A stretch of DNA of 64,000 nucleotides from Cymbomonas tetramitiformis. Its lineage: Eukaryota; Chlorophyta; Pyramimonadophyceae; Pyramimonadales; Pyramimonadaceae. Positions 13,429 through 35,884 of the stretch are shown here, piece after piece (the first letter of the stretch is position 1; every line of letters starts with the position of its first letter). Under the pieces are notes generated by a model that worked only from the letters and a program-made list of their open reading frames with translations, made no database searches and had not been told where the DNA came from. The stretch is from positions 1 through 64,000 of the forward strand of contig LGRX02035130.1 in assembly GCA_001247695.2 (NCBI GenBank). Reading direction: 5' to 3'. Position numbers and translations under genes: made by a program.

Positions 13429-13944
13429 TGTAGGAGGCAGTACTAAACCTTCTACTTGACAGTGACTGTGAAACTACTGGTGGATCATATATAGTGCAGG
13501 GTTCTATATTATGCACTATATAAGACTAATCAAGCTATGTCGATTCTTAGGAACTATGTCCAGACTCATTGCATATATTTGCAGTAAGAATTAGGTATTA
13601 TATTGTCTTTTGCCAGGCGGCTGTTTTTACTCTAGAAATCTCAACTGTTTCTTTGGCCTTGGCCATTACTTATTCACTCAGCTCTCTGAGGTAATCCTAG
13701 TCAGCATGGCCAAGTCTCATCAACCTATCATATGCTTGTACTACATTATCATGCAGTATGATGTGCCAGTATTCTACATGTCACATTATTACACAGTACA
13801 GTGGTACTGTGTACTCCCATATAAGGGGGGTCTCTTCCTCAACAGGGGTCTCGGGCGCTAATGCTGTAAGGCGCGTATGACACTTCTGGCATGTATGACA
13901 TTGCTGAGTCATCCGCGCATGACACCGTGCGTTGTCCTAGCACA
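13429..13944 (-). repeat. 3' LTR of the giant element
   Basis: 516 bp, starting TGTGCTAGG and ending CCTACA on the minus strand. It contains a TATA-like TTATATAG at about 13516-13523. The only difference from the other LTR is C at 13832 (A at 35772). Confidence 0.97.
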
Positions 13945-13960
13945 ACTCCCCCCCCCTTCA
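13945..13960 (-). other. Polypurine tract
   Basis: Minus-strand GAAGGGGGGGGGAGT lies directly before the 3' LTR, as needed to prime plus-strand DNA. Confidence 0.9.
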
Positions 13961-13999
13961 GGTGGGAAGCGTCCTCGCTTGTGCTTAGATGCACAGTCG

Positions 14000-14356
14000 T
14001 TAGGCTGATTCGGAGCCCATGGTGTCCCACTCGCTGTCGTCGGACATCACTGGTGGCGGCGTAGGGCTGTACTCCGGCATCAAGGTCACAGGCTCCTCGT
14101 CAACTCCTTCCGGATTAGCGCAGACTCTTTCATCGTTGAGATCTGTCTCATTTTCATCTCTCCAGAGCAGCTCCGCTAGGTATTCACACACCGCTGCGAT
14201 TGCCCCCACGCACGGGCTGTTCCACCGGTAGAGAGCTGAATAATTGCAAGGCTGCGGGGATGCCATACACGTGCCATCCAGCTCCCATACCTGGCCTAGG
14301 GTCGCCCGACTCTCTGCTGGTGGAGCCGCTCTGCGCCATCTTCTCGTGTCGACCAT
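14000..14356 (-). CDS. Small acidic C-terminal ORF of the giant element
   Basis: 118 codons from an ATG at 14356, overlapping the end of the methyltransferase ORF in another frame. The product has a neutral N-terminal half and an acidic tail (ENETDLND, SDDSEWDTMGSE). No family is recognised. It could be the true C-terminus of the upstream protein after a frameshift, or an out-of-frame passenger. Confidence 0.35.
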   Translation of the reverse strand: MVDTRRWRRAAPPAESRATLGQVWELDGTCMASPQPCNYSALYRWNSPCVGAIAAVCEYLAELLWRDENETDLNDERVCANPEGVDEEPVTLMPEYSPTPPPVMSDDSEWDTMGSESA

Positions 14357-16016
14357 AACGGCGTTTGAAGTCGCAGGGGTTTTCGGGGTCGCAAGACTTC
14401 AGGGTGGTGATAGGCGCGTTGGTCCAGAAGTGGGTGGGTTTCTTGTAGGGCATACCATACTTACAATACGTAGCCAGATGCGGAGGTGGCAACCCTTGCA
14501 TGCATCGGCGAGTGTGTAACCCATGAGGAGCTCGGCCACGCGGGTTCTCGATGAAGTAGAAGCTCGGCTGGAGGTACTTGATGATCTCCAGCGTTCTCCG
14601 CACTTGCCTGTCAGCACCACGCAAGTTTCGTATCCCTACCGTTTTGGCTTGGCTGTACTCTGTGCATGGAGGGCTCGCCCAAATGACGTCAAAGTGCTTG
14701 GGCGAGAACTGCCGATAGTCCCAGTGCAGGATGTTTTCGCAGTGAGTGGGCTTCCATCGGTTCTGGATGTCCACCGAGACTACCTCACACCTAGGAAACT
14801 GCTTGCTGAACTGTCGTTCGACGGAGCCCGTGCCACAAAACAACACCAAGATCCGTATTGGGCGTCGAGACGGCTGTAGGCGTGCTGCTCCTCGTCCAGG
14901 TCCTTGGGATGGCATGAAACTAGTGGGCGACACCGTCGCGAATGTGCCCACCTCGTCGTCGGCTCGTTCTTCCGGGATCCACGCCATTCCGTCCGCCTGT
15001 AGCTCTTCAGGATCCGTCAACCATATCGCTCCTGCTGACTCCTCGCGTTTGCGATTGACTCTGCTCTTTTCACGTTCTTGCCTCTTGGCCTCGACCTTCT
15101 CGAACTCCTGAAGAGCGCGGTTAGGTATCCCTTTTCGGCCAACTCCATCGAACTCGAGGTCCTCGCGAGTTTTCCATTCATTCTCGGAGCGCGGCATACC
15201 TACCCATTTGACCATGTACTCCGTCCATGTCCGCCCGCTACGTCTCCTCGTGCGTGACCTCTCAATGCACTCCACCGCCATCTCCTTACGACCGCTTACA
15301 TCCACAGGGGGAGGCGGAATCTCCGCACTCCTGTCCGCGAACTTGTCCTGGCCCGACTCCACTGGGGTGAGTCTATCCACTGTGAAGACGTCGTGCACCT
15401 TCCACTGTGGTGGTAGCTTCAGGCGGTAAGCCGCGGGGGCCCCTCGGTCCTCGGGGGCGAGCTCCATCTGCCGATCGCTGTGGAAGGCCTCCAGTACCTC
15501 CATCGGGCCCAGGCGCTTCTTCAGCAACTTCTTGTGTAGGCCCCGATCCCCGGGCTGGGTGAGATGCGTGGCGTCCACCCACACCATGTCACCTATTGCG
15601 TACCGGCGAGCGCGATGGCGAGCGTCATACTGGGCCACTTGCTGCTGCTGAGCTACCAGCAACCTATCGCGAGCAGTCTGCAACTGCTGAACAAACTGCC
15701 GGGCGGTCTCGTGGGCCGTGCCTTTCTTCACGACGTCCCCTCTCCCCCCCTTGGCGCGGCCCCTACGAGAGGCCAATGCAGCTTCTATGAAGAAGTCGAG
15801 CTGCGACGCCGGGGCATGCCCATAGCAAAGCTCGAAGGGTGTGAATCCAGTAACCGCGGACCTGGAGTCGTTAATGGCGTACTCCACCGGGGTGCGCCAT
15901 AAATCCCAGTCTGTCTGGTTTGCGTCAACGTAGGCGCGCAACATGCGCTCCACCGTGTGGTTTGTGTGCTCCGCTTGGCCGTCCCCTTGTGGATGGTACG
16001 GCGTAGTGGAGGCCAC
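14184..16016 (-). CDS. Integrase C-terminal half, chromodomain and C5-cytosine methyltransferase-like domain
   Basis: 610 codons continuing the integrase after an in-frame TAG (16017-16019). Residues 1-60 hold the end of the integrase catalytic core, with the catalytic Glu in HPQGDGQAE (E16). Residues 100-220 form the GPY/F-type C-terminal region (KKRLGPMEVLE, HDVFTVDRLTP). Residues 246-300 are a chromodomain (EYMVKWVGMPRSENEWKTRED), which binds histone marks and targets insertion in chromoviruses. Residues 388-590 resemble a cytosine-C5 methyltransferase: motif I LVLFCGTGS, motif IV ASPPCTEYS with the catalytic-type Cys451, and motif VI IENP. A later YCKYGMPYKKPTHFWTN segment takes the place of a large target-recognition domain. 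Cys, Asn-Pro and the SAM loop are all retained, so activity is conceivable. The natural start is not 16016; this part should be reached from the pol frame upstream. Confidence 0.85.
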   Translation of the reverse strand: MASTTPYHPQGDGQAEHTNHTVERMLRAYVDANQTDWDLWRTPVEYAINDSRSAVTGFTPFELCYGHAPASQLDFFIEAALASRRGRAKGGRGDVVKKGTAHETARQFVQQLQTARDRLLVAQQQQVAQYDARHRARRYAIGDMVWVDATHLTQPGDRGLHKKLLKKRLGPMEVLEAFHSDRQMELAPEDRGAPAAYRLKLPPQWKVHDVFTVDRLTPVESGQDKFADRSAEIPPPPVDVSGRKEMAVECIERSRTRRRSGRTWTEYMVKWVGMPRSENEWKTREDLEFDGVGRKGIPNRALQEFEKVEAKRQEREKSRVNRKREESAGAIWLTDPEELQADGMAWIPEERADDEVGTFATVSPTSFMPSQGPGRGAARLQPSRRPIRILVLFCGTGSVERQFSKQFPRCEVVSVDIQNRWKPTHCENILHWDYRQFSPKHFDVIWASPPCTEYSQAKTVGIRNLRGADRQVRRTLEIIKYLQPSFYFIENPRGRAPHGLHTRRCMQGLPPPHLATYCKYGMPYKKPTHFWTNAPITTLKSCDPENPCDFKRRYGRHEKMAQSGSTSRESGDPRPGMGAGWHVYGIPAALQLFSSLPVEQPVRGGNRSGV

Positions 16017-19000
16017 CTACACCCCCTTAAGGCGATGCAACTCCATATGAAAGGCGTCACGGAAGCGAGAGTCCCTGTCACAAATGATTTCATAGGAGCA
16101 CCGTGCAGTCGCCAAACATGGTCGAAGTACATTCGTGCCACTTGCTCAGCAGAACTGTCGGAGTACAGCATGGGGACCACGTGCACCATCTTGGACAACT
16201 TGTCCGTGAACGTGGCGAAGGCGTCGTAGCCCCGCTCCGTGCGCGGCAGTCCTGTGACGAAGTCAATGCTCACCACCTGCCACAGCCTGACCGGGACCTG
16301 GAGGGGGTTCAGCTGGCCATCCGGATAGCTGTTCCTCGGGCGGGTCTGCTGGCATATCAAGCACGAGCGGGTCCAGTCGGTGACGTCTTTGTTCATGCGG
16401 GGCCACCAGAACCGCCGCACTATCCGAGCAAGAGTCTTATCTCGCCCGGTGTGTCCCGCCGCGGGAGACTCGTGCGCTTCACGCATGACTATCTCTCGAA
16501 GGGGAGAGTCGGACGATAACACCAGCTGGTAGCGTCCCTCCGCGATGCGCCAGATCATGTCGTCAACCATGCGGAAGGTGTCCGTGCGCTGGTGCGGGGC
16601 GGTTAAAAGCTCTTCCTTTAACATCGTGAGGTAAGGGCTACGTTCGTACTCCGCGCGTAGTGCTTTTACGAACTGGCATGCCTTCAGTGGTCCTTTGGCT
16701 GCGCGCGCCTTGGCCGCTGGCCCCGTCGTGACCATAGGCTCGCTTGCACCTTGAGCTGCGGGCGCACGGGCACTCTTCGCTCGAGGCCGAGTCCGGCTGG
16801 CCGCTGGCGCCCACACCAGCAGCACGGGCCACCGCAGCGCTGGTCGGCCTCCATAGTCTGGTGACTCAAACAAGCATGTATGGTGACCCTTGGCATCCTT
16901 GAGGTCGAACACCTTGACCACGTGCAGGCCGTACTTGGGCTGGATAAGGGTGCGCCAGGACGCGTCATAGTCCGGCAGTAGGAACATCGCCGACGTGTTC
17001 TCTGGGTCGGCGCGCCACTCAGCCATGAAGTGGCGTAGGATCCTCTCAATGAGGTTGTTATCCTTGGTGTAGGGGGCTTTGCACCAGAAGTGCTTTCCCC
17101 GCCATTGCTGCTTGAGGCACTCCGTCCAATAATAGGTGTCCACTTGGCGGTTGACGCCCATGGAGTCACAACACGCGTCCACATCGAACGGGCCGTACTG
17201 CGCTGAGATCTCTTCGAACTTCTCCTTTACCAGTTTCCAGTCCTGCCGGTCTACCACGTTATCGTAGTGGGAGCTTGACGCGGGAGGGGAACTTTGTTTG
17301 CTGGGAGGGGAAGGACTAAGGGGAGTTGAGGGGGTTGGAGAGGGGGCTTGCTCCGGTTGCGAGCGAGAGCGAGTAGTGACGCCAGCAAGGGTGGCTTCAT
17401 GCAAGGCGCGCTCCGCGGTGTGCAACGTCTCAGCTGCGTCTTCCCACAGGTCGGGGGTTTCCACCCAGGTGAGCCCATTCAGATGAGTGAGCTCCCCAAC
17501 GACCAACGGAGGGCTGACCGGAGGTACAGACTCGTCTTCAGAGTCGGAGTAATCAAACGTGGTGTCGAGCACCGAGATGGGGTCTTCAAGGATCTTGACT
17601 TTAGCGGGCTCCTCGGACGGCTCTTCGTCGGTGTCGTCCTCGTCGATTGCACCGAATACTGAGGTGGGATCGGCGGGGGTCGAGCTCTCAGCCGGCTCCC
17701 TTGGCACACTCTGACGAGGCTCGTCTGTATCCCGGTCGACCACGCCCTTCTCCTTGAGCCCCTCCCTGGCGGATGACTGCTTGTAGTCTGGTCGTCTGGA
17801 TTGGGCGTCCGGAACTACTAGGCATCGGCCAGGTACGTGCTCCATTTGGTGCACGCCCACTTCCACCAAGTCCTCATACCAGCGTGCCTGGCGTCGACTC
17901 AGCTCCCGAGCCGGTGCGAAGAGCCACTGCAAGGGTTGGTGGTCACCCATGAGTTTGAAGTCGGTGAATATAAGGTAATGCCTCCACGTCACTGTGGTGC
18001 AGTGGTGGATGGCGCACAGCTCCCGCTCCCCAGCGTGGTAGTTCTGCTCGGCCGAGGAGAATTGCCTGCTCTCGAAAGCCAGCGGTTGAAGACCTCGCCC
18101 CAGGTCTTGCATCAGCACGCCTCCTAGTGCGACCGCACTGGCGTCGGTCTGCACGCAAAATGGACGAGACCCATCGGCTGCTGAGCGCTGGTCCGGTAGG
18201 GCGAGGATTGGTGCTGAAATCAATGCTGACTTCAATCGTTGGAAGGCTTCTTTCTCCTCCTTGCCCCAAGTCCATGGCACTCCCATCTTCGTGAGGCGAG
18301 TGAGAGGGTGGGCAATGTGAGCGAAGGACTGGATGTACCGCCGGTAAAAGCCACACATTCCAAGGAATTGGCGCACGTGGGTGACAGTCTCGAGCTCCGG
18401 CCAGTCGCGAACTGAGGCAACTTTGTCGCGTTGGGGGCGACAACCTTCCTTACTGCACACATGGCCAAGGAAGCGTACTGCTCGCATGCACAACTTCAAC
18501 TTGCTTCGCTTGAGGTATACTTTGTGCTGGCGACAGGCAGCTAATACAGCTCGTACATGGCCGACATGCTGCTCAGGTGTGTCACTGAAAATCATGATGT
18601 CGTCCACGAACACTCTGCAGAAGGGTAGGTGTCCGAGGTACTGCGTCATCATTCTTTGCCACGTGCTCGGTGAGTTGCTCAGTCCCATAGGCATGACCAG
18701 CCACTCATAAGCTCCAAAGTGGGTGGTCATGGCTGTCTTCTCGATGTCCTCCTGTTCCATGGGAACTTGCCAGAATCCCCACAAGGCGTCTGCAGTGGAG
18801 AAGACGGTTGCTCCTTGTAGGTCATCGAGGAGGGTTTGTACGTCAGGAAGAGGGTACTTGTCCTTGACCGTGATCTCATTTATCGACCTGTAGTCGATAA
18901 CCAAGCGCAACTCCTTAGGGTTGCTCGGCTTCGGCACCATAAGTACCGGACAACCCCAGGGAGACGCCGATGGACGGATGTACCCCTTGGCCAACAGCTC

Positions 19001-19198
19001 GTCAAGTTGTGCACGAAGTTGCCGAAGCTCCTCTTGCGACAACTTGTAGTTACGCCGATGTAGCGGCTGTCCACTCCAGTCGGATCGCAAGCGAATGTTG
19101 TTCTTGTAGTCGCGGCTTTGGACGGAGTCAGGCAGCTCCGTACATATGACGTCCCTGAACTCCTCCTCAAGGTCACGCAGCTGTTGGCCTGTTGCCAT
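15785..19198 (-). CDS. pol: Pol: reverse transcriptase, RNase H, Dam-like domain, integrase N-terminal half
   Basis: Starts at ATG 19198. Residues 75-245 are the reverse transcriptase (first Asp at 137 in FSTADA, catalytic FVDD at 197-200). Residues 345-460 are RNase H (Asp352, Glu391-393, Asp419). Residues 470-645 are a Ser/Pro/Asp-rich linker. Residues 651-800 match phage-type Dam N6-adenine methyltransferases in layout: GPFDVDACCD, then a W-rich segment ending WCKAPY (706-710) where NPPY is expected, then FLLPDYDASW and WPVLLVW. The integrase zinc finger is His909, His916, Cys946, Cys949, and its first catalytic Asp is 979. Near 16090 one base appears to be missing: the second Asp (in CDRDSRF) is found in the next frame, so residues after about 1036 are out of frame. 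The upstream acidic ORF end near 19200 also changes frame. Its neighbours are protease upstream and chromodomain downstream. Confidence 0.92.
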   Translation of the reverse strand: MATGQQLRDLEEEFRDVICTELPDSVQSRDYKNNIRLRSDWSGQPLHRRNYKLSQEELRQLRAQLDELLAKGYIRPSASPWGCPVLMVPKPSNPKELRLVIDYRSINEITVKDKYPLPDVQTLLDDLQGATVFSTADALWGFWQVPMEQEDIEKTAMTTHFGAYEWLVMPMGLSNSPSTWQRMMTQYLGHLPFCRVFVDDIMIFSDTPEQHVGHVRAVLAACRQHKVYLKRSKLKLCMRAVRFLGHVCSKEGCRPQRDKVASVRDWPELETVTHVRQFLGMCGFYRRYIQSFAHIAHPLTRLTKMGVPWTWGKEEKEAFQRLKSALISAPILALPDQRSAADGSRPFCVQTDASAVALGGVLMQDLGRGLQPLAFESRQFSSAEQNYHAGERELCAIHHCTTVTWRHYLIFTDFKLMGDHQPLQWLFAPARELSRRQARWYEDLVEVGVHQMEHVPGRCLVVPDAQSRRPDYKQSSAREGLKEKGVVDRDTDEPRQSVPREPAESSTPADPTSVFGAIDEDDTDEEPSEEPAKVKILEDPISVLDTTFDYSDSEDESVPPVSPPLVVGELTHLNGLTWVETPDLWEDAAETLHTAERALHEATLAGVTTRSRSQPEQAPSPTPSTPLSPSPPSKQSSPPASSSHYDNVVDRQDWKLVKEKFEEISAQYGPFDVDACCDSMGVNRQVDTYYWTECLKQQWRGKHFWCKAPYTKDNNLIERILRHFMAEWRADPENTSAMFLLPDYDASWRTLIQPKYGLHVVKVFDLKDAKGHHTCLFESPDYGGRPALRWPVLLVWAPAASRTRPRAKSARAPAAQGASEPMVTTGPAAKARAAKGPLKACQFVKALRAEYERSPYLTMLKEELLTAPHQRTDTFRMVDDMIWRIAEGRYQLVLSSDSPLREIVMREAHESPAAGHTGRDKTLARIVRRFWWPRMNKDVTDWTRSCLICQQTRPRNSYPDGQLNPLQVPVRLWQVVSIDFVTGLPRTERGYDAFATFTDKLSKMVHVVPMLYSDSSAEQVARMYFDHVWRLHGAPMKSFVTGTLASVTPFIWSCIALRGCRWPPLRRTIHKGTAKRSTQTTRWSACCAPTLTQTRQTGIYGAPRWSTPLTTPGPRLLDSHPSSFAMGMPRRRSSTSS

Positions 19199-19497
19199 AT
19201 CTCCGGGGACACCGTCTCGTCAATCTCGTCCGGCTCCTCCGCTTCCATGGCGTGGGGCTTGGGCGGCGGTGACGGTGGTTCCTCGGCCACTGGAGCAGCC
19301 TGCTCTTGAGATAAACCTTCAGTATGGGGCTTCTCGTCGCTCCAGCGCACACGCTTGCGTCGCGGCCGACGTTCGCGGAGTAAGCGCCTTCCCTGCTCCA
19401 GCGCGGCTGCGGCTTCGGCATGCCAGGTGGGTGGTTTCCCTTGCGCGTGGTCGTCGATTGCCTGGGCACGTACGTGCTCAGGTAATAAAGCAAATGC

Positions 19498-20289
19498 TCA
19501 CAAAGCTTCCCGCTTGCTCTGGAAGAACCCCACATGTAGGTTGTTGGATGGCGCATTGTCCGCCGGGGGACCAACGGCACCCTCCAGCGCGACCACGTCA
19601 AAGTTTTGTGGGCGGGTGGACTCCACTGTTGCGTACACTTTATCCAAGTGGTCCTCGTCACTGGTGCCTGGGCTGGGCCGCACAGATTCCCGGAGGAGTA
19701 GAGCGTCCTCGGCTTCGGAGTCGGTGTCTGACGCGGACATCAGCGCAGGCGCGTCCGTCTCACCCAGATCCGCTTGGGAGGAGTCCATGGCGCCCGCGAC
19801 TTGGGCGTCTTGCTGCTCAGAGCTAGACGTGGCGCGACGCTCGGACGAAGCGTCCTTGGGCTTGGCGTTGGTCTCGGCGTCGGCCTCTTCGTCACAGGCG
19901 ACCGCCCCGAAGGTGCCGTCGGGTGCCAGGTACACCACGAAGGCACACTCATCCTTAGATTGGAGGGCTCGAAGGTCCTTGCGTACCCTTTTGGGGTCCA
20001 ACAAGACTCCTTGTACCAGCGCCATGGCCTTATCCTTGGGTCTTGAGGGGTCTGGCGTTCCCGACGAGCAGCCTGTAATGACCACTCTCTTGCTTCCAGA
20101 ACCAAACCGGATGGAACCCCATCGGGAGTAATCCAAGGTGACTGGGGGGTGGGAGGCTAGCCAAGGTCCTCCAAGGATAATATCCACGCAAAGATCAATG
20201 GGCATCACTCTGAGCTCCAATTGCTTGACGTACAACCCCTTGGTGGTCTCTATCTGCTTGCAGTCGAGGGCGGACGCACGTGTTGACAT
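19498..20289 (-). CDS. Protease C-terminal part and acidic linker
   Basis: 264 codons from ATG at 20289, overlapping the previous ORF by 95 bp in another frame. The first 60 residues (LELRVMPIDLCVDIILGGPW, then LDYSRWGSIRF) are the second half of a retropepsin-type aspartic protease, in which DIILGxxWL is a family hallmark. The rest is Asp/Glu/Ser-rich and probably an unstructured linker towards RT. Because the first half of the protease is in another frame, either one base was lost or gained near 20240-20290, or ribosomes shift frame here. Confidence 0.75.
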   Translation of the reverse strand: MSTRASALDCKQIETTKGLYVKQLELRVMPIDLCVDIILGGPWLASHPPVTLDYSRWGSIRFGSGSKRVVITGCSSGTPDPSRPKDKAMALVQGVLLDPKRVRKDLRALQSKDECAFVVYLAPDGTFGAVACDEEADAETNAKPKDASSERRATSSSEQQDAQVAGAMDSSQADLGETDAPALMSASDTDSEAEDALLLRESVRPSPGTSDEDHLDKVYATVESTRPQNFDVVALEGAVGPPADNAPSNNLHVGFFQSKREAL

Positions 20290-21283
20290 CGTACGACGCG
20301 CCGTCAGCTACTCGCACTCGCATGGGGTTTTCGTGAGGTCGAGGCGTCAGAGAGGCAATGCTGCGTACAGTCTTGTCCGAGATAATGTTGGTGGAGCACC
20401 CAGTGTCCACCAGCACCTTTACGCGACGACCGTTCACGTACGCCCAGAACAACAACAAGGTGGGGGCCTTGGAATTGTTGATCTGTCGAGGTGGCGCTCG
20501 CGATGTTGATACAGCCGCCAAGAGATCACTCCAACCAGGGCTCATGTCCCCACTGTCGGTGATGCTGTTGAGCTGGCATACGATGGGGTCGTCCTTGGCA
20601 TGAGGGTCGCCTAGGTCAAGAGGGTCGTCCATGGCAGAGTCCCATGGTAACTCGTAGGTGCCTGCATCGGCCAAGAGCCCTTGAGCGGTGGCTGTCTGCA
20701 CCAGGTCCCTGGGTGGGTAATCAGGTGGGTACAAGGCCACTTGGATGACCTTGTCCTTCGCTGCTCGCGCCATATCATTCGTCGCCAAGTCACTTGCGTA
20801 CTGGAGGAGTCCGTCTTCTACTTCCTCTTGCGCTTGTTCCTTGGCTAAGATGTGCAGTAGCTCTTCGTCTATAGGAGAGTCCCGCTCCAAATATGGGAGG
20901 CCACTGGCATAATCCCGCTTAAGCTTCTCTCGTTGGCGAACCTTCTCCAGCCCACTGAGCCACCTCCTCATTGGTGCTCCTTCAGCTCGAGCTGCATGGG
21001 TCGGTGACAACCATGGTCGGGGGCGGTCACTCCGTGTGGTTGAGGTTGCCTCGACAGTCGTGTTGTCGTTAGTTGAGGGCGTACGAGGTTGACGCCCAAG
21101 CTGGATGTCTTGACGTCGTCGTCGGTATTCTTGCAGCCTTTTAAGTTTGCTAAGGGCTGCGGGTAAGGGTGATCGAGCTCGAGCTTCTCGCTTGTTGGCG
21201 GTAACCGCGTTGTGCGTTGGTGACCGCGTGGGTCCTCGGCTACTGCGTCGATTGTCTATTGGGCTTATGGTGGGGTAACCCAC
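20195..21283 (-). CDS. Aspartic protease N-terminal part (retropepsin-like)
   Basis: The reading frame enters from the inserted element at 21289-21908 and has no natural start of its own. The first 200 residues are Arg-rich and then acidic. Near the C-terminus lies VNGRRVKVLVDTGCSTNIIS with the catalytic DTG and the usual hydrophobic-hydrophobic-DTG-x-x pattern. Retropepsins cut Gag-Pol into working proteins. Removing the insert and one 13-base duplicate joins this frame directly to the ORF at 21909-22449, so the ancestral product was a Gag-tail plus protease fusion. Confidence 0.8.
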   Translation of the reverse strand: MGYPTISPIDNRRSSRGPTRSPTHNAVTANKREARARSPLPAALSKLKRLQEYRRRRQDIQLGRQPRTPSTNDNTTVEATSTTRSDRPRPWLSPTHAARAEGAPMRRWLSGLEKVRQREKLKRDYASGLPYLERDSPIDEELLHILAKEQAQEEVEDGLLQYASDLATNDMARAAKDKVIQVALYPPDYPPRDLVQTATAQGLLADAGTYELPWDSAMDDPLDLGDPHAKDDPIVCQLNSITDSGDMSPGWSDLLAAVSTSRAPPRQINNSKAPTLLLFWAYVNGRRVKVLVDTGCSTNIISDKTVRSIASLTPRPHENPMRVRVADGASYDVNTCVRPRLQADRDHQGVVRQAIGAQSDAH

Positions 21284-21908: not shown

Positions 21909-22449
21909 GGTGCGCCCAATAAACACGATGCCCGGCTCTCCAAAGCGGTGGGCTCGTGCTCCGCGGAGGTGTACGGGGCGGTGCAAGGTCCGTTTCCAGA
22001 GCCTTGATGGAGGACCTCAAGCCCCGTGTGCCCACCTTGGAGCGTAGAGCGCCCGTCCCTTGCCCTCGGACAGCTCGAAATTGCCAACCTTGCAATGGTT
22101 GGCCCGTTGGCTCCAAGTGCACGCGGTAGCTCTCGGTCACCTTCAGGGTACGTCGGTGCCGTTTCTCAACGTGCTGGGAGTCGTCTGAGAGGTCCTCGCT
22201 TGTACACACTGGAGACTTGGCTTCCTTGCGAAGACGAGCTTCGACCACTTGACGCTCCGGCGCGAGAGGAGGGCTGGTCATCGCCCGCGAGGGTAGCATG
22301 TTGAGCTCATCGGAGTCTAGGTATCCTGTGCAAGGAGCACTCCGCCTTTGACGTCGACGGGCTCTTCTCCACTTCTCCCGCAACTGTTGCTCCGAGAGGT
22401 AGGAGGGGGGCTCATCGCGGGGATGTGGGGTTCCACAGCCCGAGCTCAT
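21909..22449 (-). CDS. Basic Gag-tail / Pro leader ORF
   Basis: Begins with an ATG at 22449 that overlaps the TAA stop of the preceding ORF (TAATG), and runs through an Arg/Ser-rich product (LREKWRRARRRQRRS) until it meets the inserted element. No domain is recognised. The highly basic character would suit nucleic-acid binding. The stop-start overlap would permit termination-reinitiation, or it may mark a lost frame. Confidence 0.6.
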
Positions 22450-23219
22450 TAGGACTTGGAGGGTACTCCGAGCTCGAGGGAGTCCTCCGCGGCAAAATCC
22501 ATTAGTTCCTTTGGCAACACCGCGTTGAGCACGTCGCAGTATTCATCCGTTTCCACTTCGTGCATGATCATGTCCAAGGTTTCAGCCAGAAGTGCTTTGG
22601 CCCACTCCTTTTTACGAAGAGCAGCCTGTGGGCACTCTCGAGCATAGTGCTCTTTGCTTTGGCACAGCCTGCAACCAGTGTACTCCGGGGAGCCCAGACG
22701 TTGCCCAGTAGGAGTTGCACCCGCGGGACGATCTTCGGCTAGAGCTAGTAGCTCCTCCGAGACCTCCACCGCTGCCAGTAGCTGCACTGGCGCTCTCCTA
22801 CTCGTCGCGTTGTTCAAATGCAACTCCGCCTCAATGGCGTATTCCAGCGCTAGGCGTCGACTGGCTGGAAGGGCGCGGTCGAGGAGGATCAAGGGGGTCC
22901 CCTTCCGCTCTGCAATCTCGAACGCCTCCTTCCGTACCTCCGCGGATAAGCCCGAGAGGAAGACGTCCAGGAGGTCGGATTCCGGAACCGGAGTGGTGAG
23001 CTCGTGTGTCGCCAACATGGTCACCACGCGATGGGCTAGATGCAGTCCATCCCAAAACTCGCGCACTTTGCGCGGTGTCGCCATGCGTCCTTGAGTTTGG
23101 CGTACTCGGCGTAGGAACGAGCCCAAGGTGGCCATTTCACTCTTCAGCGGCACGATCAACTTCGCCAGCGGCACGATGACCTTCTCAAGGTTCAATGACT
23201 TGTCCGCTTCGGCATCCAA
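22449..23219 (-). CDS. gag: Gag: capsid C-terminal part and CCHC zinc knuckle
   Basis: 256 codons, open upstream without an ATG (the first codon of the open frame is TTG), so it should be entered from the ORF at 23192-24364 by a frame change within their 28-bp overlap. The helical capsid region (FWDGLHLAHRVVTML, LLDVFLSGLSAEVRKEAFE) follows the retrotransposon Gag pattern. A zinc knuckle C-RLC-QSKE-H-YARE-C (Cys-x2-Cys-x4-His-x4-Cys) identifies the nucleocapsid that binds element RNA. An acidic tail follows. Confidence 0.88.
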   Translation of the reverse strand: MDAEADKSLNLEKVIVPLAKLIVPLKSEMATLGSFLRRVRQTQGRMATPRKVREFWDGLHLAHRVVTMLATHELTTPVPESDLLDVFLSGLSAEVRKEAFEIAERKGTPLILLDRALPASRRLALEYAIEAELHLNNATSRRAPVQLLAAVEVSEELLALAEDRPAGATPTGQRLGSPEYTGCRLCQSKEHYARECPQAALRKKEWAKALLAETLDMIMHEVETDEYCDVLNAVLPKELMDFAAEDSLELGVPSKS

Positions 23220-25655: not shown

Positions 25656-26063
25656 TGATAAAGCCTATCCAACACCAGGTGGGAAGGATGCCATAGCCCG
25701 ATCGCGTCATGGTGACCTGAAATCGCGACCTGACCTCATGAAGGCGTGACACAAGCGTTGCCACGCTCGTGTCGCCGGCGATTCCTGGCGAAATCCAAAC
25801 GACCGCTCCCTAGATTCGATGATGCCTCGACTTTTGTTGTTAAATCCCTGAAACTCGCCTCTCTGCGCTACAGTTCGTACGATTGGGGCATGCCCGCCGC
25901 TGCGGCGGGCATGCCCCATGGTATCCCCCACTGCAAGCTTTAACAAAATTTAACCTTCGCAGCGCCCGCTTTACCTTTACCTCTTACTTCCTTCTTTCTC
26001 GCAAAAATGCCAGGCGCGTGCAATGACCCAGATGCTGCTGAGGGAAAATATATTCAGAAAGTC

Positions 26064-26987
26064 TTAAACCGCACGCGACGAGATGAACAAGATGCTGACG
26101 GCTGCTGGTTGGTCGACCTCTGCGTCGACTGCAAGTTCGACTTCTTGAAGAGTCGAAAAGAAATCGAACGCTGTCGCAGGCAACATGAGGGACCGAACTG
26201 GTACACCGTCGTGTTCCCAGCTGGTGCTGATACAGTGGTTCGCGTGTTCCATGTTGACGTAGGTTATTGGAACAACCGGATACTCGGCACCCAAAGAGGA
26301 GGCAACTGGCACGCCGATCCGAAAGGAGGCAGAGCAGCCACAAAACCGCGCAGATCTGTTTTGTTTGAGCTTTGTGGCGGGACGTGGAACAACGCCTTCT
26401 GGAGGGGGAGCACATGCATCTTTCGCAGCTTGGCGTTTCCACCATTCGGACTGGAACCCGCAACGACATGCGTAATGATGTTTGTAGGGCCAACCATCAT
26501 GCGCGGGACGAGGTTTAGCTAAACTGCGGTCCGTTTTGGGAGGTTTCGTATATGGTTTTGTCTTGGCGCTGGCGTCGTTTCTAACGCGCACAATGTGAAA
26601 CTGGTTCGGATTAGGATCACTGGAAGGTGATCCGTAGTTTCCTTCGCCCCGGACAAAATCCTGTACGCGAGACACTGGAAGGTACGTTGTTGGGAGCAGT
26701 TTTGGTTTAGCTGATCGCGGTATGCTTTCCCAGGACCAGTGAAGATCGTGGCGAGAAAGCGACCCCCAAGGGATCCGGTATTCTAGAGAGCCAGCGGTGC
26801 CAATAGTGAACATGGTATCGGCAAGGAGGTTGGTAGCGTCGGGCTGTAGGTTGGGGCATGTAGGTTTAGAACCCGCTGGTTCTGTGCTAACCTCCGCGGT
26901 GTTCGCATGCGATGCAACCAGATGCGACGCAAAGCCGAACATCGCGCGTGAACGCCCGCTAAGGGTTAGGCGTGAAAAGAAAGACAT
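26064..26987 (-). CDS. Zinc-finger-like ORF of the nested TIR element
   Basis: 307 codons from ATG 26987. The middle shows a possible metal-binding module: YACRCGF, about 45 residues later RFCGCSASFRI, then ITYVNMEHANHC with spaced His and Cys. FAR1/MULE-type transposases begin with DNA-binding modules of similar layout (Cys pairs followed by H-x-x-H-C), so the protein may bind the element's ends. No catalytic Asp/Asp/Glu domain follows. The long plus-strand ORF at 26007-26522 is its shadow. Confidence 0.55.
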   Translation of the reverse strand: MSFFSRLTLSGRSRAMFGFASHLVASHANTAEVSTEPAGSKPTCPNLQPDATNLLADTMFTIGTAGSLEYRIPWGSLSRHDLHWSWESIPRSAKPKLLPTTYLPVSRVQDFVRGEGNYGSPSSDPNPNQFHIVRVRNDASAKTKPYTKPPKTDRSLAKPRPAHDGWPYKHHYACRCGFQSEWWKRQAAKDACAPPPEGVVPRPATKLKQNRSARFCGCSASFRIGVPVASSLGAEYPVVPITYVNMEHANHCISTSWEHDGVPVRSLMLPATAFDFFSTLQEVELAVDAEVDQPAAVSILFISSRAV

Positions 26988-27048
26988 GCCTTAGGAGTAG
27001 GAAAGCAGAAGACAACGGACCGGTAGAGGCTAGACACTGGTCGCTGAC

Positions 27049-27357
27049 CTATTGGGTAACGAAACGCCCCACGCGGGCGTCGTACCAAGCTGGAATGGTC
27101 CACTTAGGTACACCGTGCTGGTTGTAGAAGACCCAAAAGAATCCGCAATCTCTATTTGGTGGCAGCCAGCGCCGAAGCTGCAGTCTGAACGCGAGTGGAA
27201 GATGAATAGAACCGTCGTCTACATCTAATGAGTAAAACTCTAAGCGCCAGTGGCGAATGCGCGGAACCGCATAATTTCTGGTTTGTCTTATAGTAAAAGG
27301 ATTGTGAGGACGAGCAGCTTCAGCTTCAGGATTGGGGGGACGCAGTGGTATCGCCAT
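27049..27357 (-). CDS. Small ORF of the nested TIR element
   Basis: 103 codons from ATG 27357, upstream of the zinc-finger-like ORF on the same strand. The product is rich in Pro, Trp and Tyr (FWVFYNQHGVPKWTIPAWYD), which does not look random, but no family is recognised. It might be a first exon of the neighbouring ORF. Confidence 0.4.
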   Translation of the reverse strand: MAIPLRPPNPEAEAARPHNPFTIRQTRNYAVPRIRHWRLEFYSLDVDDGSIHLPLAFRLQLRRWLPPNRDCGFFWVFYNQHGVPKWTIPAWYDARVGRFVTQ

Positions 27358-27602
27358 GTAATACAAACAAAATGAATGCAGGGCGGCTGTTTTTTGGAAG
27401 CATTTAAGTGCTGTGAAGTGAAGATTTCGCGGGAAGAATGGAATCTAGGGAGCGGTCGTTTGTACTTCGCCAGAAATCGCCGGCGACACGAGCGTGGCAA
27501 CGCTTGTGTCACGCCTTGATGAGGTCAGGTCGCGATTTCAGGTCACCATGACGCGATCAAGCCATGACATCCTTCCCACCTGGTGTTGGATAGGCTTTAT
27601 CA

Positions 27603-28504: not shown

Positions 28505-30163
28505 CCGGGTTTTTTGAGTGTGCAGTTTTTTAACATATTTATTCGAATCGTGCCACTCCAGTATATGGGACACAACCCGATTCGGGTGCATTTTAGGAAC
28601 ATAATCCTCGCGACAAGTCATTTTTGAATCATTATACACGAGTGACGTCAGACTGTATAAATGACATGAATCGTGTTTTTCGTATCAGAATTCAGGAGTG
28701 ACGGTATCCACGAGGTTTACGATATCAGTCGAGTATACTAAATTATCACTGGACGCGCTTTCCGGAACCGATCGGTGAGTATCGTGGCGTTCTTATATAT
28801 TTTCACTTTTCGGATTCGACTGTATTGAAACGTGTGTAATATATAATTCATATTTTTGTGACTCGCGTTGCACATGAAGGAAATACGGTGAACGAGCTCG
28901 TGCTATAAATCGTCGTATCCAAGATTCGGCCGTTATCCTACGACAATAGTACAGCAGGCAGCAAATCGGTAAGTCTTGCGAATCATCGCGAATATATAAC
29001 TAGTGTATAAATTCCGTGGCCTGATGCAATTTGAAATCGGCTGTAGTTCTTCTGTTGTCCGTCCAGTATCCTATAAATCAGCATATACACTATTCGGCCG
29101 TTATCATACTACAGTTATACGATGAGCTGCAAATGGATAAGTCATGGTGATCATCGTGGAAATATAAATATTACATAATTTCCGACCACCGATGCAATTT
29201 GGGATCTGCCGAAATTCGTCTATCGTCGTCCACTATTCGACAAATGACGAAAGTCGCATCGGGCAGCATCTTGGCTCGAAGAACCAAAGCGCCGTCCCGT
29301 GATTGGAGATCGAAATGATGCCCATCGGGCGCAATGCGCCGTTCATGCGGAAAACATTCGCTCAGTGACATTGACAGTCGAGTGAAGAAAAACATGCATC
29401 ATCATCACCCGGTCTGTTCGTTGTGGTCATCGGTGAATTTGAATGCAGAATGCGCCGACGGAGGCAGAAATAAAATCGAATTCTATGCAGAGATAATTTC
29501 AAAAATTGCGGTCAAAGATGCAGCAGCAGCAGGAAATGATTTCGTTCACTGCGTTCTTAAACGCAGCTTCCTTGCGGAAATATATCAAGCGATTGAAATA
29601 AGGGCGCGAGGTAAGATTTTGTTCTCGCTTGGAAACCCTCGCTAAAGGGAACTCAAATTGGCAACTGAGGGTTGCACTGCTTTCACAGCAAAACTCAGCG
29701 CGAAAGAGACAAGATGTTTCTATTTCACACACTTCAATTGGGTAATTTTACCGAAACTTGCGTTTTCCTTTTGGCCAAACTAAGTATTCTTCCACTCGCA
29801 GATTTTTCAGCGCGACGCTTTTCTACCGCAACCGTTTATCTGACGAAATTTCTGAGAACGTCACGTTACTCTCCGTGAAAAATTACGACATGTAGCTACT
29901 TCGTTTGATTCATAATCGAAGTATTCACGAAAATCGTCCATGGGGCCTGTATTTGTGGCACACTGTGCCACAGTAGGAGGCCTTCCATGGTAGGCCAAAA
30001 TTCCGGACATCACATATCAAAGCGCGAGGAAGGAATTCGTTCCAATGGATGGAATTGAGAAGGTATGAGTCGTCGATCGTTCTATTTTAGTGGCATTAGC
30101 TCAAATCTAAAGAGCGCCGAACCAAGTTCGGAGATCTCAGTTGGACCTGAGATGCCACCTTTC
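28505..30163. other. Leader of the giant element, part 1
   Basis: No gene recognised. Near 28925-29080 and 29095-29220 a unit of about 170 bp is roughly duplicated (ATTCGGCCGTTATC, GATGCAATTTG and GGTAAGTC-like parts). Several 60-100-codon ORFs at 29.2-29.9 kb show no family motif. Confidence 0.5.
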
Positions 30164-30372
30164 ATCACATTGCTGTGGCGCACTTCACGAAAATGAGGGT
30201 TAGAGCCCCTTGCCTGGCAAGAGAGCGCTCCCTCAGGATCGTGCAGCTAAAGAGCCAAGCATGTGAATTATCACATTGCTGTGGCGCACTTCACGAAACC
30301 GAGGGCAAGAGCCCCTTGCCTGGCAAGAGAGCGCTCCCTCAGGATCGTAAAGCTAAAGAGCCAAGCATGTGA
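30164..30372. repeat. 106-bp direct repeat, two copies
   Basis: Units start at 30164 and 30270 with ATCACATTGCTGTGGCGCAC and differ at a few positions. Each contains CCTTGCCTGGCAAGAGAGCG. Confidence 0.85.
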
Positions 30373-30407
30373 GCTAAAGAGGCAAGCTTGCCAAAAAGGC
30401 AAGCTTG

Positions 30408-30540
30408 CCATCCGAGCATCCGAACTCGCCATCCGAGCATACCCACTCGCCATCCGAGCATACCCACTCGCCATCCGAGCATACCCACTCGCCATCCGAG
30501 CATCCGAACTTGTCATTCGAGCATACCGCAACTAGTCATC
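30408..30540. repeat. 21-bp tandem repeat, about six copies
   Basis: Unit CCATCCGAGCATACCCACTC plus one base. The outer copies carry the variant CATCCGAACT. It is translated in any frame into regular repeats, so the ORFs here are artefacts. Confidence 0.9.
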
Positions 30541-30959
30541 CAAGCTTTAAACTTAGCATATACCACTTGCATATCACTCATACAGTCATAACTTATCATA
30601 ACTTATCTTGACGCGAGCTTTTGTTAGCTCATACCTTACATACTCTTCTTTTTGTATTTTTCTAACTTTTTACATACTTATCCTTTCGGGCTGAAATTTA
30701 GTGTGCTGAATAGGTTTTGCATAGACAAAAATTTCGGTATATAGTTTATTAGCACGATAGGCGTAATATATCGAAAACTATGACACTATCGGTTTGAGGC
30801 TACGCACGATTAGCGGAAACGATGCATTTCCCTAACTTGTTACATACTTATCCTTTCGGGCCAAAATTTAGTGTGTTGAGTAGGTATTTGATAGACGAAA
30901 AGGTTAATATAGTGTTGGTGGCGGTGGCTCCTCGGCCTCATCCTCTATGCCAATATTTA

Positions 30960-31960
30960 TCATCTCCGGAATGACTCTCCTCTCCGTGGCATTCGCGTGC
31001 CTCCGGAATATTTGGCATCTCGTGAATATTTCCCATCTCCACTATCACATTCGCGCGACTCCGGAAAAGTTTTCTCCTCCGGAAAATTTCTCATCACCGG
31101 AATGACTCTCCTCTTCGTGCTATCGTTCGCGTGCCTCCGGAATCGATTTCTCCCATCTCCGGAATATTTCCCATCTCCATTATCACATTCGTGTGACTCC
31201 GGAATAGTTCTCTCCCGCCGGAAAAATTCTCATCTCCGGAATGACTCTCCTCTCCGTGAAATTCGCGTGACTCCGGAATATTTCTCATCATCTCGTCCAA
31301 AATATTTCCCATCTCCACTATCACTCATGGGAGTGCCAACTTTCTCCCCCCATAAGGGGGGAACAATGGTGCCCCCTGTGTCACCCCTCGCCTGGTAGGA
31401 TGTCACTTGCAGTGCCTGCCTGTTTGCTCCGCGAGTGTGTCACGGTCCTGCCAGCTTAAGTCCGACCATCTTTATTGTTATATCTGACATTAGCCGAGAA
31501 CCGAACCGCCGAAACCCTACCGCGCTGCATTTCATTTTTAGTGACAAGTATATATATCAATATTATTTGCTTTCACATCAATCACATTCACGTGACTCCG
31601 GAATATTTGGCATCTCCTCCAAAATATTTCCCATCTCCACTATCACATTCGCGTGACTCCGGAATATTTCTCATGTCTCCGGAATATTTCTCATCGTTTC
31701 CGGAATGACTCTCCTCACCGTGACATTCGTCGCGTGACTCCGGAAAAGGGAAAAGTTCTCATCTCCGGAATTACTCTCCTCTCCGTGACACGATTCGCGT
31801 GACTCCCGAAGATTTGGCATCTCCTCCACGAAAATATTTCCCATCTCCACTATCACATTCACGTGCCTCCGGAATATGTTTTATTTCCGGAATACGATTC
31901 GTTGCCATCTCCACTATCACGCATTCGCGTGACGACTCAGAATATTTCTAATTTCCGGAA
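30960..31960. repeat. Degenerate TCCGGAATATTT / CATCTCCACTATCAC array
   Basis: About 1 kb in which CTCCGGAATATTTCTCATC, GGAATGACTCTCCTC and CATCTCCACTATCACATTCG recur in shuffled order more than twenty times. Interrupted near 31330-31570 by unrelated sequence. No coding. Confidence 0.85.
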
Positions 31961-32189
31961 TATTTTTGCAGTGCATTTTCTTTTCGGCAGAATTTGATGG
32001 TGTAACGAAATTATCTTACCCCACGAGTTTTAGTTCGTTTGAGAAATCTCGAATTGGGTCAAATGAAATCGCTTGAGACTCGTCTAAAAATGTGTCGTTA
32101 CGTGCACCCGGGATCACCACCCTTGACCGGCGAAGTGTTTGCGGCCTCTATCAGCTCGATGGCGCGAACCATCAGCATAAATTGTCTTC

Positions 32190-35112
32190 ATGCTGCGCGG
32201 TGTGTAATGATGGTTTATAGTGGATTGTGGAAAGTGGGCGCTTTTAGGGCCTAAAAGCGCCTGGGTACAGTGCTCTTAACACTTAAGGCTGAGGGGCAGT
32301 GCTTTGCGGTTCAGATGGTCTTCATAGCGCTAGCGCCGCGCGGTATGACAGCGACATCGACATGAAAATGTGATGACATGACATGACATGACACGACATG
32401 ACACGACATCCGACATGAGATGACATAACTTGCCACGACGCGACGCGACGCGTACTTGTAGCTCCGCTCCGCTCCGCTCCGTCGCGTCGCTGATGACAGA
32501 CTGACGGATGACGAGTTGACTCGCGCACCAGAATTCATGAGAAAGAGTTCGAATGCTCATAACAATTTTGGATTGCCGTTGAGTTAAAGGAGACTGTCGG
32601 CTGACGAACGTGCGCCCAGCAGCGGGTCTTGTCAGCCGTCAGTCTTCTTTTCGTTTTCGTGCTGCGTGCTTTTTCGGATACTTTTTGAAATTTTAGAACA
32701 CGCTCATACGACTTGTGTATGTTACAGGTTGGGTTCGCTGGAACTCCCGAGAAAGTAGTTTGGGCGCGCGGCTCCAATTTTGAAGTTGGTAAGGCGGGTG
32801 CTCTTCTTTTTGCGGGTGCTTCTCCTTCCTTGGACAGAAATCTTTCGCATTAGCTAGTCCGATCACACTATCCTCGCTGTTTGTTTTCTGTGACTCACTG
32901 ACTAATTTCAGCGTTTCTTACGTGTGCAGGCTTAGACACGTCAGAGGTTTCCCTGCGGAAGCAATCATCGAACGTGGAACGACACAGGTGAGTTTTCTTT
33001 TTCCTTAAAAGTCCCCATGCTCATAACGTTTTGCCAGGTTTGTACAATTCCTTTTTCATCGTGATGTTTCGACATCACCACCTTCGGCGCAGTGCGCCGA
33101 AGGTGAATTTTGTGAAATATGACTTCCGTATGCTGAGTGCAGTTGCCTTTTTCGCAGGTGCAAGGCGACGTGCAAAGAAGAGCCAGAATGCTGACTTATT
33201 TTAACGAAACTAGATTAGACTTGCCTCTAACCTTGTATATGTGATAGTAGAAGTAATTGACTGTAACACTGATATGTGATAGTAACTGTAATAGACCATC
33301 TTAAATATGTAAGATTTGTTTTTCTTTGAATATTTGTAACGCGTTTCGATAGTTTCCGAGCATTTGAAAACTGTGTTCTAACTCATCTTGATCACTTCCA
33401 AGCATATGTTTCGACCTTTCGGCCAACTTGTCGGTGCCACGCATCGAGACAGTAGCACTCAGCCGTGGATTGCATCTACGGCTGAATGTTACACACAACA
33501 GCCGTGGATTGCATCTACGGCTGAATGTTACACACAACAGCGCGTCACGTGATACATATATAATGCAAATATATTACATATATATGCGCGATGCATACTA
33601 CCCGCAACTATTCCGGATCCACAAATATGCAGCATACTTACACGAAACACGATATGTAGTATGCTGCATACTTACGGAACCTGGAGTGATAGTGTGCATG
33701 ATTGCGGAGGGTGCATATTTCTCGAAAATATGCGGAGGGTGCATATTTTATGAAAATATGCGGAGGGTGCATATTTCCCGTATACATACCGTTTGTATCT
33801 TGAATGTGGCAAATTTACATAAGCTATATTCTGTTGTAAATTTACATAACCCGGAGTGATAGTGCATATATTTACAGCATCTGTCTAGAACCCGAAAATC
33901 TACGTAGACTATGCGGGTCGAAAAAAACCCGGATGTCCCATTCCGGGACAAAGTACGGGGTGGGCCCCAAAGCCCCAAGCTCATCCAATCCCCGGTGCTC
34001 AAACACCCGGACCGAGCTGGAGAGCCCGGAGGGCCCAGAAGCAGCACCCGCCACCCCCGAGCGCCGCTGAGGCGGAATATACAGCGAAGAAGCCCGCCGT
34101 GAAGAGGACATTGAAAAAGCTGCTTAAGTCGGTGGAGAAACGCAGCAAACTGATTTTGAAAAATCTGCCAGCGCTTCCGCCGTACAGGCGTATAGTGTTA
34201 AGAGCGAAGACGCAGAAGCCAGGCCCAACAGCAAATAAACAACTGCCGTTACCAAATCCCAACCAAAGTTTTCCAGCGAACTCGAAGAGGTAAGACGAAA
34301 ACAAATTGAGCAAAATTGGTCAACGATCGGCCCACGGAAGTCAAAGCAACGCTGCAGCGCGATACCACCTAGGGTTAGCTACTGCTAAGAGCGCGTTAAG
34401 GGCAACGCAAGTAAGCCGCATCTGCCAATTCAAAGAACATTCTCGAATTCCTCAGCATAAATTTGCGCAATCCCGCGCAGCCGCAAAGACACGTGACGAA
34501 GAACACGCACGCCAGCGGAATAGCGCTAATTCGAAGCTGCATCACGCCAATTCCGAGCCATAGAAGAACGCTGCGCACACATTCCAATCGCAGAGCAGAG
34601 AGCAGACGAAGATTCCGCGGAAAACACTGACCAATTGGCACAATTTCCGAGAAGAATTAACGGCGCAAAACTGCCAGCGAGTAAGAAAAACGCCGAGTCG
34701 TCGACCAGTGCGTCAGAGCGCAAATATGAAGCCCAGCAGCCAGAAGTAGATTCTCAAATCCCGCAAAGCCGGTCTCCAAGGAAGAATTACAATTCTCGAC
34801 ACAATTCGCACCGTGAATTCGCCAGTCGCGCACGCGAATGGAACGCAGAAAGGATAACGCAACGAGGCCAAGACCCAAATAGCCGTTACACTGTACACTG
34901 AACAAGTCGCAATTCTCTAATCTCCACAGATCACGACGCCACGAAGAATTAAGTCTCCATTGACAACTGAAAGATAAGATACAACGTCAAAAAGCGTCAC
35001 GGAGGCCAGCAAGCGAAAAACGACTGTAATTTTGCAGTTGGGCGCTTTTAGGCCCTAAAAGCGCCCGATTTCGGGAATCCAGTGTAAACCATCATCTCGC
35101 AACGCGCTGAAG
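32190..35112. mobile_element. Probable nested TIR element in the leader
   Basis: Inverted arms of about 70 bp face each other. The left arm has CTTCATGCTGCGCGG, ATGATGGTTTATAGTGGA and a 26-bp perfect palindrome at 32236-32261; the right arm has the reverse order with a 27-bp palindrome at 35040-35066 and TCCAGTGTAAACCATCAT. Both palindromes share GGGCGCTTTTAGG/CCTAAAAGCGCC. The outer ends and target duplication are not clear. Inside are ACATGACATGACACGAC microsatellite-like DNA (32360-32420), a 39-bp tandem pair and a few Pro/Lys-rich plus-strand ORFs (33911-34563) without recognised domains. Confidence 0.55.
33461..33540. repeat. 39-bp tandem repeat, two copies
   Basis: Two identical copies starting AGCCGTGGATTGCATCTACG, the second at 33500. 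Inside each, GCCGTGGAT...ATCTACGGC is a near-palindrome. A further run of ATATGCGGAGGGTGCATATT units follows at 33710-33780. Confidence 0.9.
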
Positions 35113-35356
35113 AAGAAATTCAATCCGGATTGGTCATAAAAGACAACTTATTTGAGCATTGAGCACCAACTAGCCGAAAGGAACTGAAGCGAAGCTGCTG
35201 GCCAGTGAGGCCCGGGGTACCCGTAACGCACTAGCAGTGCGAGAGCTCAAATATCATCCGAAGAATAGGAGAACACATAAACTCGCCCGAAAAGCTATAA
35301 TTGTAAAACAGAAAAAACGTGTGGAAGCGGTGGTGGCGGTGGTGGTGCGTAGCACA

Positions 35357-35365
35357 CTGATACCA
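35357..35365 (-). other. Primer-binding site (initiator Met tRNA 3' end)
   Basis: Minus-strand TGGTATCAG begins three bases after the 5' LTR. This is the 3'-end complement of eukaryotic initiator Met tRNA used by many Ty3/gypsy elements. Pairing beyond nine bases is poor. Confidence 0.85.
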
Positions 35366-35368
35366 TTT

Positions 35369-35884
35369 TGTAGGAGGCAGTACTAAACCTTCTACTTGAC
35401 AGTGACTGTGAAACTACTGGTGGATCATATATAGTGCAGGGTTCTATATTATGCACTATATAAGACTAATCAAGCTATGTCGATTCTTAGGAACTATGTC
35501 CAGACTCATTGCATATATTTGCAGTAAGAATTAGGTATTATATTGTCTTTTGCCAGGCGGCTGTTTTTACTCTAGAAATCTCAACTGTTTCTTTGGCCTT
35601 GGCCATTACTTATTCACTCAGCTCTCTGAGGTAATCCTAGTCAGCATGGCCAAGTCTCATCAACCTATCATATGCTTGTACTACATTATCATGCAGTATG
35701 ATGTGCCAGTATTCTACATGTCACATTATTACACAGTACAGTGGTACTGTGTACTCCCATATAAGGGGGGTATCTTCCTCAACAGGGGTCTCGGGCGCTA
35801 ATGCTGTAAGGCGCGTATGACACTTCTGGCATGTATGACATTGCTGAGTCATCCGCGCATGACACCGTGCGTTGTCCTAGCACA
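35369..35884 (-). repeat. 5' LTR of the giant element
   Basis: 516 bp, equal to 13429-13944 except for one base. The promoter for element transcription would lie here, and the TATA-like TTATATAG is conserved. Confidence 0.97.

Follow-up and report, generated by a model that had tools for sequence, protein, structure and literature searches.

We analysed a window of 64,000 nucleotides from the green alga Cymbomonas tetramitiformis (contig LGRX02035130.1 of assembly GCA_001247695.2, positions 1 to 64,000), in which positions 13429-35884, on the minus strand, almost certainly represent one damaged copy of a young, high-copy family of Ty3/gypsy-type long terminal repeat (LTR) retrotransposons with two inherited methyltransferase domains in the polyprotein, one resembling Dam adenine-N6 enzymes and the other cytosine-C5 (C5) enzymes. 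Retroelements bearing DNA methyltransferases (DNMTs) and DIRS elements bearing Dam were known already; what appears to be new is the presence of both kinds in one Gypsy polyprotein. As a whole, this family is tentatively explained as one with two working domains that mark complementary DNA (cDNA) or the DNA at the insertion site, an explanation to which we give slightly less than an even chance. The puzzle it raises is why a parasite that is normally silenced by methylation would carry a methylation writer.

The element is bounded by two 516-bp LTRs (13429-13944 and 35369-35884) that differ at a single position, with GACTC on both sides, bearing out the near-identical LTRs and 5-bp duplication reported in a preliminary description made from the sequence alone. 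A primer-binding site, TGGTATCAG, which we take to resemble the 3' end of initiator tRNA-Met, and a polypurine tract add to the Ty3/gypsy features, and the domains follow the Ty3/gypsy order of protease, reverse transcriptase (RT), RNase H and integrase, with frame switches in the window copy. Pfam profiles scoring above their curated cut-offs were RVT_1, RT_RNaseH, Integrase_H2C2, Asp_protease_2, SH3_Tf2-1, Chromo (29.7 vs 25.1 bits), DNA_methylase PF00145 (26.2 vs 22 bits, E 6.9e-6, residues 389-493 of the second open reading frame (ORF)) and Dam PF05869 (a narrow pass at 28.6 vs 28.1 bits, E 1.3e-6, residues 650-720 of the Pol ORF). The profile search recovered the domains that the preliminary description had read in the letters, namely a chromovirus set with an adenine-methyltransferase-like domain inside Pol and a cytosine-methyltransferase-like domain after the chromodomain. 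Chromoviruses are chromodomain-bearing Ty3/gypsy elements with the order given above, a GPY module and a C-terminal chromodomain. The window copy resembles them in this order and in having the GPY module and chromodomain after the integrase, and differs by its two added methyltransferase domains; the label as applied here rests on the GPY/SH3 module and the chromodomain, not on the RT clade. A DIRS identity was rejected: DIRS elements have a tyrosine recombinase in place of an integrase, and the window copy has integrase domains.

Both domains recur at many places in the genome. The assembly searched comprised 851.7 Mb in 25,745 contigs; the genomic counts are first-look candidates, of which the best places were scored, and do not stand for confirmed copies. 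The C-terminal ORF gave 12,174 candidates (72 scored, 6 with a stop), Dam 7,957 (no stop in any of the 150 scored, 28 of which lie in frames of at least 2,600 codons), C5 7,850 (150 scored, 4 with a stop and 146 open), RNase H 9,869 (again no stop among 150 scored, with 30 in frames of that length) and the LTR 1,439, the 40 scored LTR places, which include the two of the window, being 98-100% identical. Eight contigs were common to the Dam, C5 and RNase H lists of frames of at least 2,600 codons, and on these the frame length (2,615-2,618 codons), strand and spacing agreed, so that the three domains appear to lie in one frame. By these counts and the near-absence of stops, the family is young and abundant. 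That the domains are chance profile matches, or captures confined to one copy, is hardly credible, even though Dam clears its cut-off in the window by just 0.5 bit: all 150 scored genomic Dam places are 96-100% identical to the domain in the window, C5 places are likewise numerous in the genome, and relatives occur in other data sets. The two outcomes that the preliminary description had named as fatal to it, a lack of profile matches and other copies without the domains, were therefore not what the collected copies showed.

The C5 domain is predicted, from its sequence and a structural model, to be a compact (~210-residue), phage-like cytosine-C5 enzyme fused behind the chromodomain. Cytosine-C5 methyltransferases share motif I (FxGxG), motif IV (PC) and motif VI (EN), all of which are present in the window; by simple patterns, FxGxG was found in 49, PC in 67 and EN in 65 of the 67 proteins with a C5 match, and PPC and ENP were kept in all 30 fetched copies. 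The PF00145 match ends at profile position 112 of 324 and does not extend over the whole profile with its target-recognition part; the domain instead resembles standalone proteins of ~205-220 residues, and matches phrog_757 in the PHROGs database (E 2.2e-15). An AlphaFold model of the window domain (mean predicted local distance difference test score 90.6) has a C5 methyltransferase fold, closest to DNMT3 and bacterial DNA enzymes. These matches bear on a different account, which we regard as less likely but as a live rival, in which the substrate is RNA: the adenine domain would methylate the cap or body of the element mRNA in the manner of PCIF1/CAPAM, and the C5 domain would be an RNA 5-methylcytosine enzyme like DNMT2, protecting the genomic RNA or tuning its translation and packaging. 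Both the fold and the matched PHROG families, which are named DNA methyltransferases, argue for DNA as the substrate, though a shared fold reveals no substrate.

The Dam-like domain is predicted to be a phage-like adenine-N6 methyltransferase situated between RNase H and integrase. PF05869 scored above its cut-off in six of six relatives (32.8-43.6 bits), and the four relatives searched with Dam in PHROGs all matched phrog_111. Phage relatives of the domain are 28-36% identical (15 rows shown of 703). The catalytic motif of Dam enzymes is D/N/S-PP-Y/F/W, and it is present in 47 of the 62 proteins with a Dam match in a local profile scan. An AlphaFold model of the domain from a relative matches such enzymes; a sequence search of the PDB with Dam returned no methyltransferase, and the structure-match list for one relative (P0004) consists mostly of RT and RNase H chains, so that it is hardly informative on alternative folds for this domain.

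The resemblance of both domains to phage enzymes, together with the 233 stretches in IMG/VR that encode relatives of the standalone C5 enzyme, is consistent with a form of camouflage, in which methylation of the cDNA would hide it, phage-style, from a host or viral nuclease or from a sensor of unmethylated foreign DNA, with no effects on chromatin. We consider this quite unlikely: we know of no restriction-like system of Cymbomonas, and in a FastTree tree of C5 domains, for which 80 of the stretches were kept, 80 of 81 viral rows lie apart from the element and other rows, giving no support for recent transfer from the viruses sampled. Scans of viral_contigs with the element profiles A1 and A2 likewise yielded no confirmed relative, and recent capture of C5 from a sampled virus was set aside.

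Beyond the window, a search with the Dam part returned 20 proteins and one with the C5 part of P0015 returned 65 long proteins; many of the shorter C5 matches (120 listed of 939) are probably pieces of elements. The few named records among the relatives are from Cymbomonas, Prorocentrum, Tetraselmis and Tara. The local profile scan found Dam in 62 proteins, C5 in 67 and both in 51, while 27 have the full order from protease through C5. A pol tree of 60 rows contains a clade of 37 members (Shimodaira-Hasegawa approximate likelihood ratio test support 96) with Dam after RNase H in every member and integrase parts following it in 36; the remaining protein, P0019, ends there. C5 lies in the same protein in 31 of the 37, after the chromodomain in 30 and N-terminal in one, and the six without it end before the place of C5, including the window Pol ORF, for which C5 is in the next ORF. 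Within this main clade, RT identity correlates with Dam identity (0.86) and with C5 identity (0.83), which suggests that both domains have long travelled with Pol, though drifting faster, and by this evidence they belong to a lineage as conserved parts. A sister clade, with 13 members, has C5 without a detected chromodomain, with Dam at varied places or absent, and in a further clade of 10 members C5 precedes Pol or lies within it; with these different positions in two other pol clades, a single founding acquisition may have occurred, yet is not compelled.

Some relatives are of note in themselves. The Dam-like domain is C-terminal rather than inside Pol in P0182, P0183, P0184, P0186 and P0188, four of which have a motif that differs from N-PP-Y/F. 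P0152, P0155, P0159 and P0164 carry a PHD finger (PF00628, by precomputed annotation), a further type of chromatin reader within the lineage. Three C5 relatives (P0086, P0106 and P0130) come from records named Prorocentrum minimum and, by label, Tetraselmis (Tetstr1). By such records, the family may reach into dinoflagellates and other green algae.

Across copies, both domains show little amino-acid change. In 29 copies picked for their similarity in Dam, the ratio of nonsynonymous to synonymous polymorphism (pN/pS) was 0.03 for that domain, 0.40 for the linker preceding it and 0.17 for the stretch that follows; in 29 picked for their similarity in C5 it was 0.04 for C5 and 0.21 for the chromodomain and linker. 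Picking copies by the domain itself lowers these figures. Sets chosen by another region show the same direction. The positions of C5 were used to predict 20 Dam places, of which 10 matched; 3 of these were dropped for gaps, and in the seven copies used pN/pS was 0.07 for Dam (codon bootstrap 0.00-0.21) vs 0.46 for the linker (0.15-2.07). For C5, seven copies from the search with the 610-residue C-terminal ORF, which contains C5, gave 0.07 (0.00-0.31) vs 0.14 for the linker (0.00-0.91).

The placement of the two domains, Dam between RNase H and integrase and C5 behind the chromodomain, suggests joint action with Pol. In the mechanism we propose for a family with two working domains, these would be made and packaged together with RT and integrase and would act either on freshly synthesized cDNA or on the DNA where it inserts. 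The resulting methylation would favour survival of the new copy in the chromatin selected by the chromodomain. Modification of cDNA or of the insertion site is the most likely form of action by analogy with other DNMT elements, in the sense discussed for them in the excerpted text of PMC5890265; the DNA-marking step, as read from sequence, is itself a tentative proposal that falls somewhat short of an even chance. A more far-reaching version, which we consider doubtful, is that a broad LTR retrotransposon lineage of algae and other hosts acts as a dual-base genome modifier, with phage-like adenine and cytosine DNA methyltransferases in one polyprotein with RT and a chromatin-reading integrase placing a two-base mark on each new copy at or before integration, as a eukaryotic counterpart of phage DNA modification.

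Several observations weigh against two working, DNA-marking domains. The window Pol ORF has no match in PHROGs, NCBIfam methyltransferase matches of both kinds fall far below their cut-offs, and PF00145 is above its cut-off in only one of six relatives (P0018), three of the others being below it and two without a match (that part being wholly or mostly missing). The Dam-like domain of the window has two 3-bp insertions and KAPY in place of NPPY; among 30 fetched copies, the window included, the motif reads NPPY in 24, SPPY in one, NTPY in four and KAPY in one, and some relatives have altered forms such as SPPC, SPPH, SPPS and NPVY, so that Dam activity is evidently not required in every lineage. 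Dam and C5 change more quickly than RT, RNase H and integrase do: at RT identity of 0.80-0.90, mean identity is 0.87 for RNase H, 0.87 for integrase, 0.73 for Dam, 0.71 for C5 and 0.43 for the linker. Where copies were picked for pN/pS through a different region, the sets are small and the intervals wide, and the value for C5 does not lie clearly under that of its linker. Finally, CpG transitions between copies show no significant excess in the coding parts (odds 1.17, p 0.32; 1.21, p 0.24) and a weak one in the LTRs (9/25 vs 38/226 sites, p 0.03, one of three tests), where the 40 rows include some places twice. The altered Dam motifs and the faster drift fit a reading in which the domains have no catalytic role and are merely carried along or serve a structural purpose, for instance in binding nucleic acid; the near-complete retention of the PC and EN motifs of C5 and the low pN/pS make this improbable. 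The observed/expected CpG ratio is 0.43 in the LTR vs 0.92 in the coding part, and this depletion, with the weak transition excess, is no more than a lead to a methylation footprint.

The four NTPY copies (L092, L093, L094 and L095) share a common motif, which suggests either an amplified subfamily with a changed Dam or copying in trans.

The closest described systems, cited here from excerpts of open-licence papers, each share part of this architecture. DNMTs have been described in LINE, DIRS and Gypsy elements, with Dam cited in DIRS and purifying selection reported on an element-borne DNMT domain (PMC5890265), and a further listing gives Dam for DIRS elements and cytosine enzymes for both Gypsy and DIRS (PMC6338049). 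KnitGypsy-Dnmt3 of Klebsormidium nitens (de Mendoza 2018, PMC5890265) is likewise a Gypsy LTR element whose Pol frame includes a cytosine methyltransferase, with evidence that purifying selection acts on it, but its enzyme is a eukaryotic Dnmt3, whereas the Cymbomonas element has the ~210-residue phage-like C5 behind a chromodomain together with a Dam-like domain; the excerpts of that paper name Dam-like domains only in DIRS. Dam-bearing DIRS and SymbioDIRS-Dnmt3 (PMC5890265, PMC6338049) also encode a Dam-like or Dnmt domain with a retroelement RT, but DIRS elements use a tyrosine recombinase, whereas the Cymbomonas element has an integrase, LTRs with a 5-bp duplication, a chromodomain and both kinds of domain. 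In Cymbomonas itself, three scaffolds at >10,000x with homology to a chromodomain, RNase H and cytosine DNA methyltransferase were reported (Burns 2015, PMC5741210); these high-copy repeats share the three homologies with the element, and the excerpts of that paper give neither an element architecture nor an adenine domain. In Ectocarpus, a Sola DNA transposon that carries ParB and N4C/6mA methyltransferase domains (PMC12477816) is another algal mobile element with a methyltransferase, but is a DNA transposon with one methyltransferase and no reverse transcriptase. No description of a Gypsy element with both a Dam-like and a cytosine methyltransferase was found in the open-licence literature, with subscription papers and preprints outside it, and the preliminary statement that the dual-domain architecture is undescribed stands within that scope, PMC5741210 noting, in its excerpted text, the chromodomain, RNase H and cytosine methyltransferase homologies only.

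The case draws its interest from both kinds of domain in one polyprotein, thousands of candidate places in one genome, relatives elsewhere and natural variants of the Dam motif. The presence of N6-methyladenine in eukaryotic DNA is disputed, and the adenine domain bears on this question; with its two domains, the element may chemically mark its own DNA or RNA. Given the copy number and the natural Dam variants, long-read base-modification data from this one alga could directly test self-marking and the base concerned.

The preliminary description had also taken 22.5 kb as the length of the element (Table 1), which does not hold for the family, as two nested insertions (7.4 kb) are included. 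Aligned to the window, the 5' part of a second copy, C8014, falls into blocks that skip ~25656-27600 and ~28510-33935, and these inserts are later insertions, since each has inverted ends and a short duplication. Without them the window copy measures ~15.1 kb; from LTR to LTR, copy C4766 spans about 14.5 kb and copy C8014, with parts missing, 9.2 kb. A natural family length of 22.5 kb was ruled out on the shorter span of these copies and the absence of the inserts from C8014.

Table 1. Features of the retrotransposon copy in the 64,000-nucleotide window.
Feature	Position	Strand	Evidence or remark
Target-site duplication GACTC, left	13424..13428		sequence
3' LTR, 516 bp, TG...CA in element sense	13429..13944	-	1 mismatch to 5' LTR
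Polypurine tract adjoining 3' LTR	13945..13959	-	sequence
Second ORF: integrase end, GPY/SH3, chromodomain, C5 methyltransferase	14184..16016	-	ORF list, Pfam, profiles
Predicted short cytosine-C5 methyltransferase; FCGTGS, PPC, ENP motifs	14247..14858	-	Pfam, PHROG; frame switch near 14211 affects tail
Chromodomain	15150..15278	-	PF00385 E 6.1e-7, 29.7 vs 25.1 bits
GPY / SH3_Tf2-1 module	15354..15548	-	Pfam, relatives-built profiles
Pol ORF: RT, RNase H, Dam-like, H2C2, integrase start	15785..19198	-	integrase frame breaks near 16090
Integrase zinc finger and first part of core	16088..16507	-	Pfam, relatives-built profiles
Dam-like N6-adenine methyltransferase domain	16856..17251	-	PF05869; relatives-built profile E 2e-53; motif KAPY
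RNase H	17864..18268	-	PF17917 E 2.1e-27
Reverse transcriptase	18458..18937	-	PF00078 E 6e-32
Aspartic protease, in ORF 20195-21283	20291..20443	-	PF13650 E 5.2e-7
Gag-like ORF	22449..23219	-	zinc-knuckle below cut-off: PF13696 21.0 vs 27 bits; PF00098 18.9 vs 20.8
Nested insertion, ~1.95 kb, 165-bp terminal inverted repeats, 7-8 bp duplication ATTGTTT	25656..27600		absent from copy C8014
Nested insertion, 5.4 kb, short terminal inverted repeats, 3-bp duplication	28510..33935		absent from copy C8014
Primer-binding site, three bases after 5' LTR	35357..35365	-	sequence
5' LTR, 516 bp	35369..35884	-	1 mismatch to 3' LTR
Target-site duplication GACTC, right	35885..35889		sequence

Against the proteins of close relatives, the window copy switches frame in or near the protease, before RT, in the integrase and near the C5 end, and the alignment of these proteins jumps at 21925/21253; because of the frame switches, this copy would be unable to make the polyprotein as one frame. 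Sequencing error may be a source of the damage. Judged by the near-identity of its LTRs, the copy is young despite this damage. Ten further ORFs, nine outside the element and one inside, have no Pfam match above cut-off. As for the two inserts, the one at 25656-27600 is a DNA element with 165-bp inverted ends that are 94.5% alike and a 307-residue ORF without a Pfam match; the one at 28510-33935, with no listed ORF of at least 150 residues, contains internal tandem repeats.

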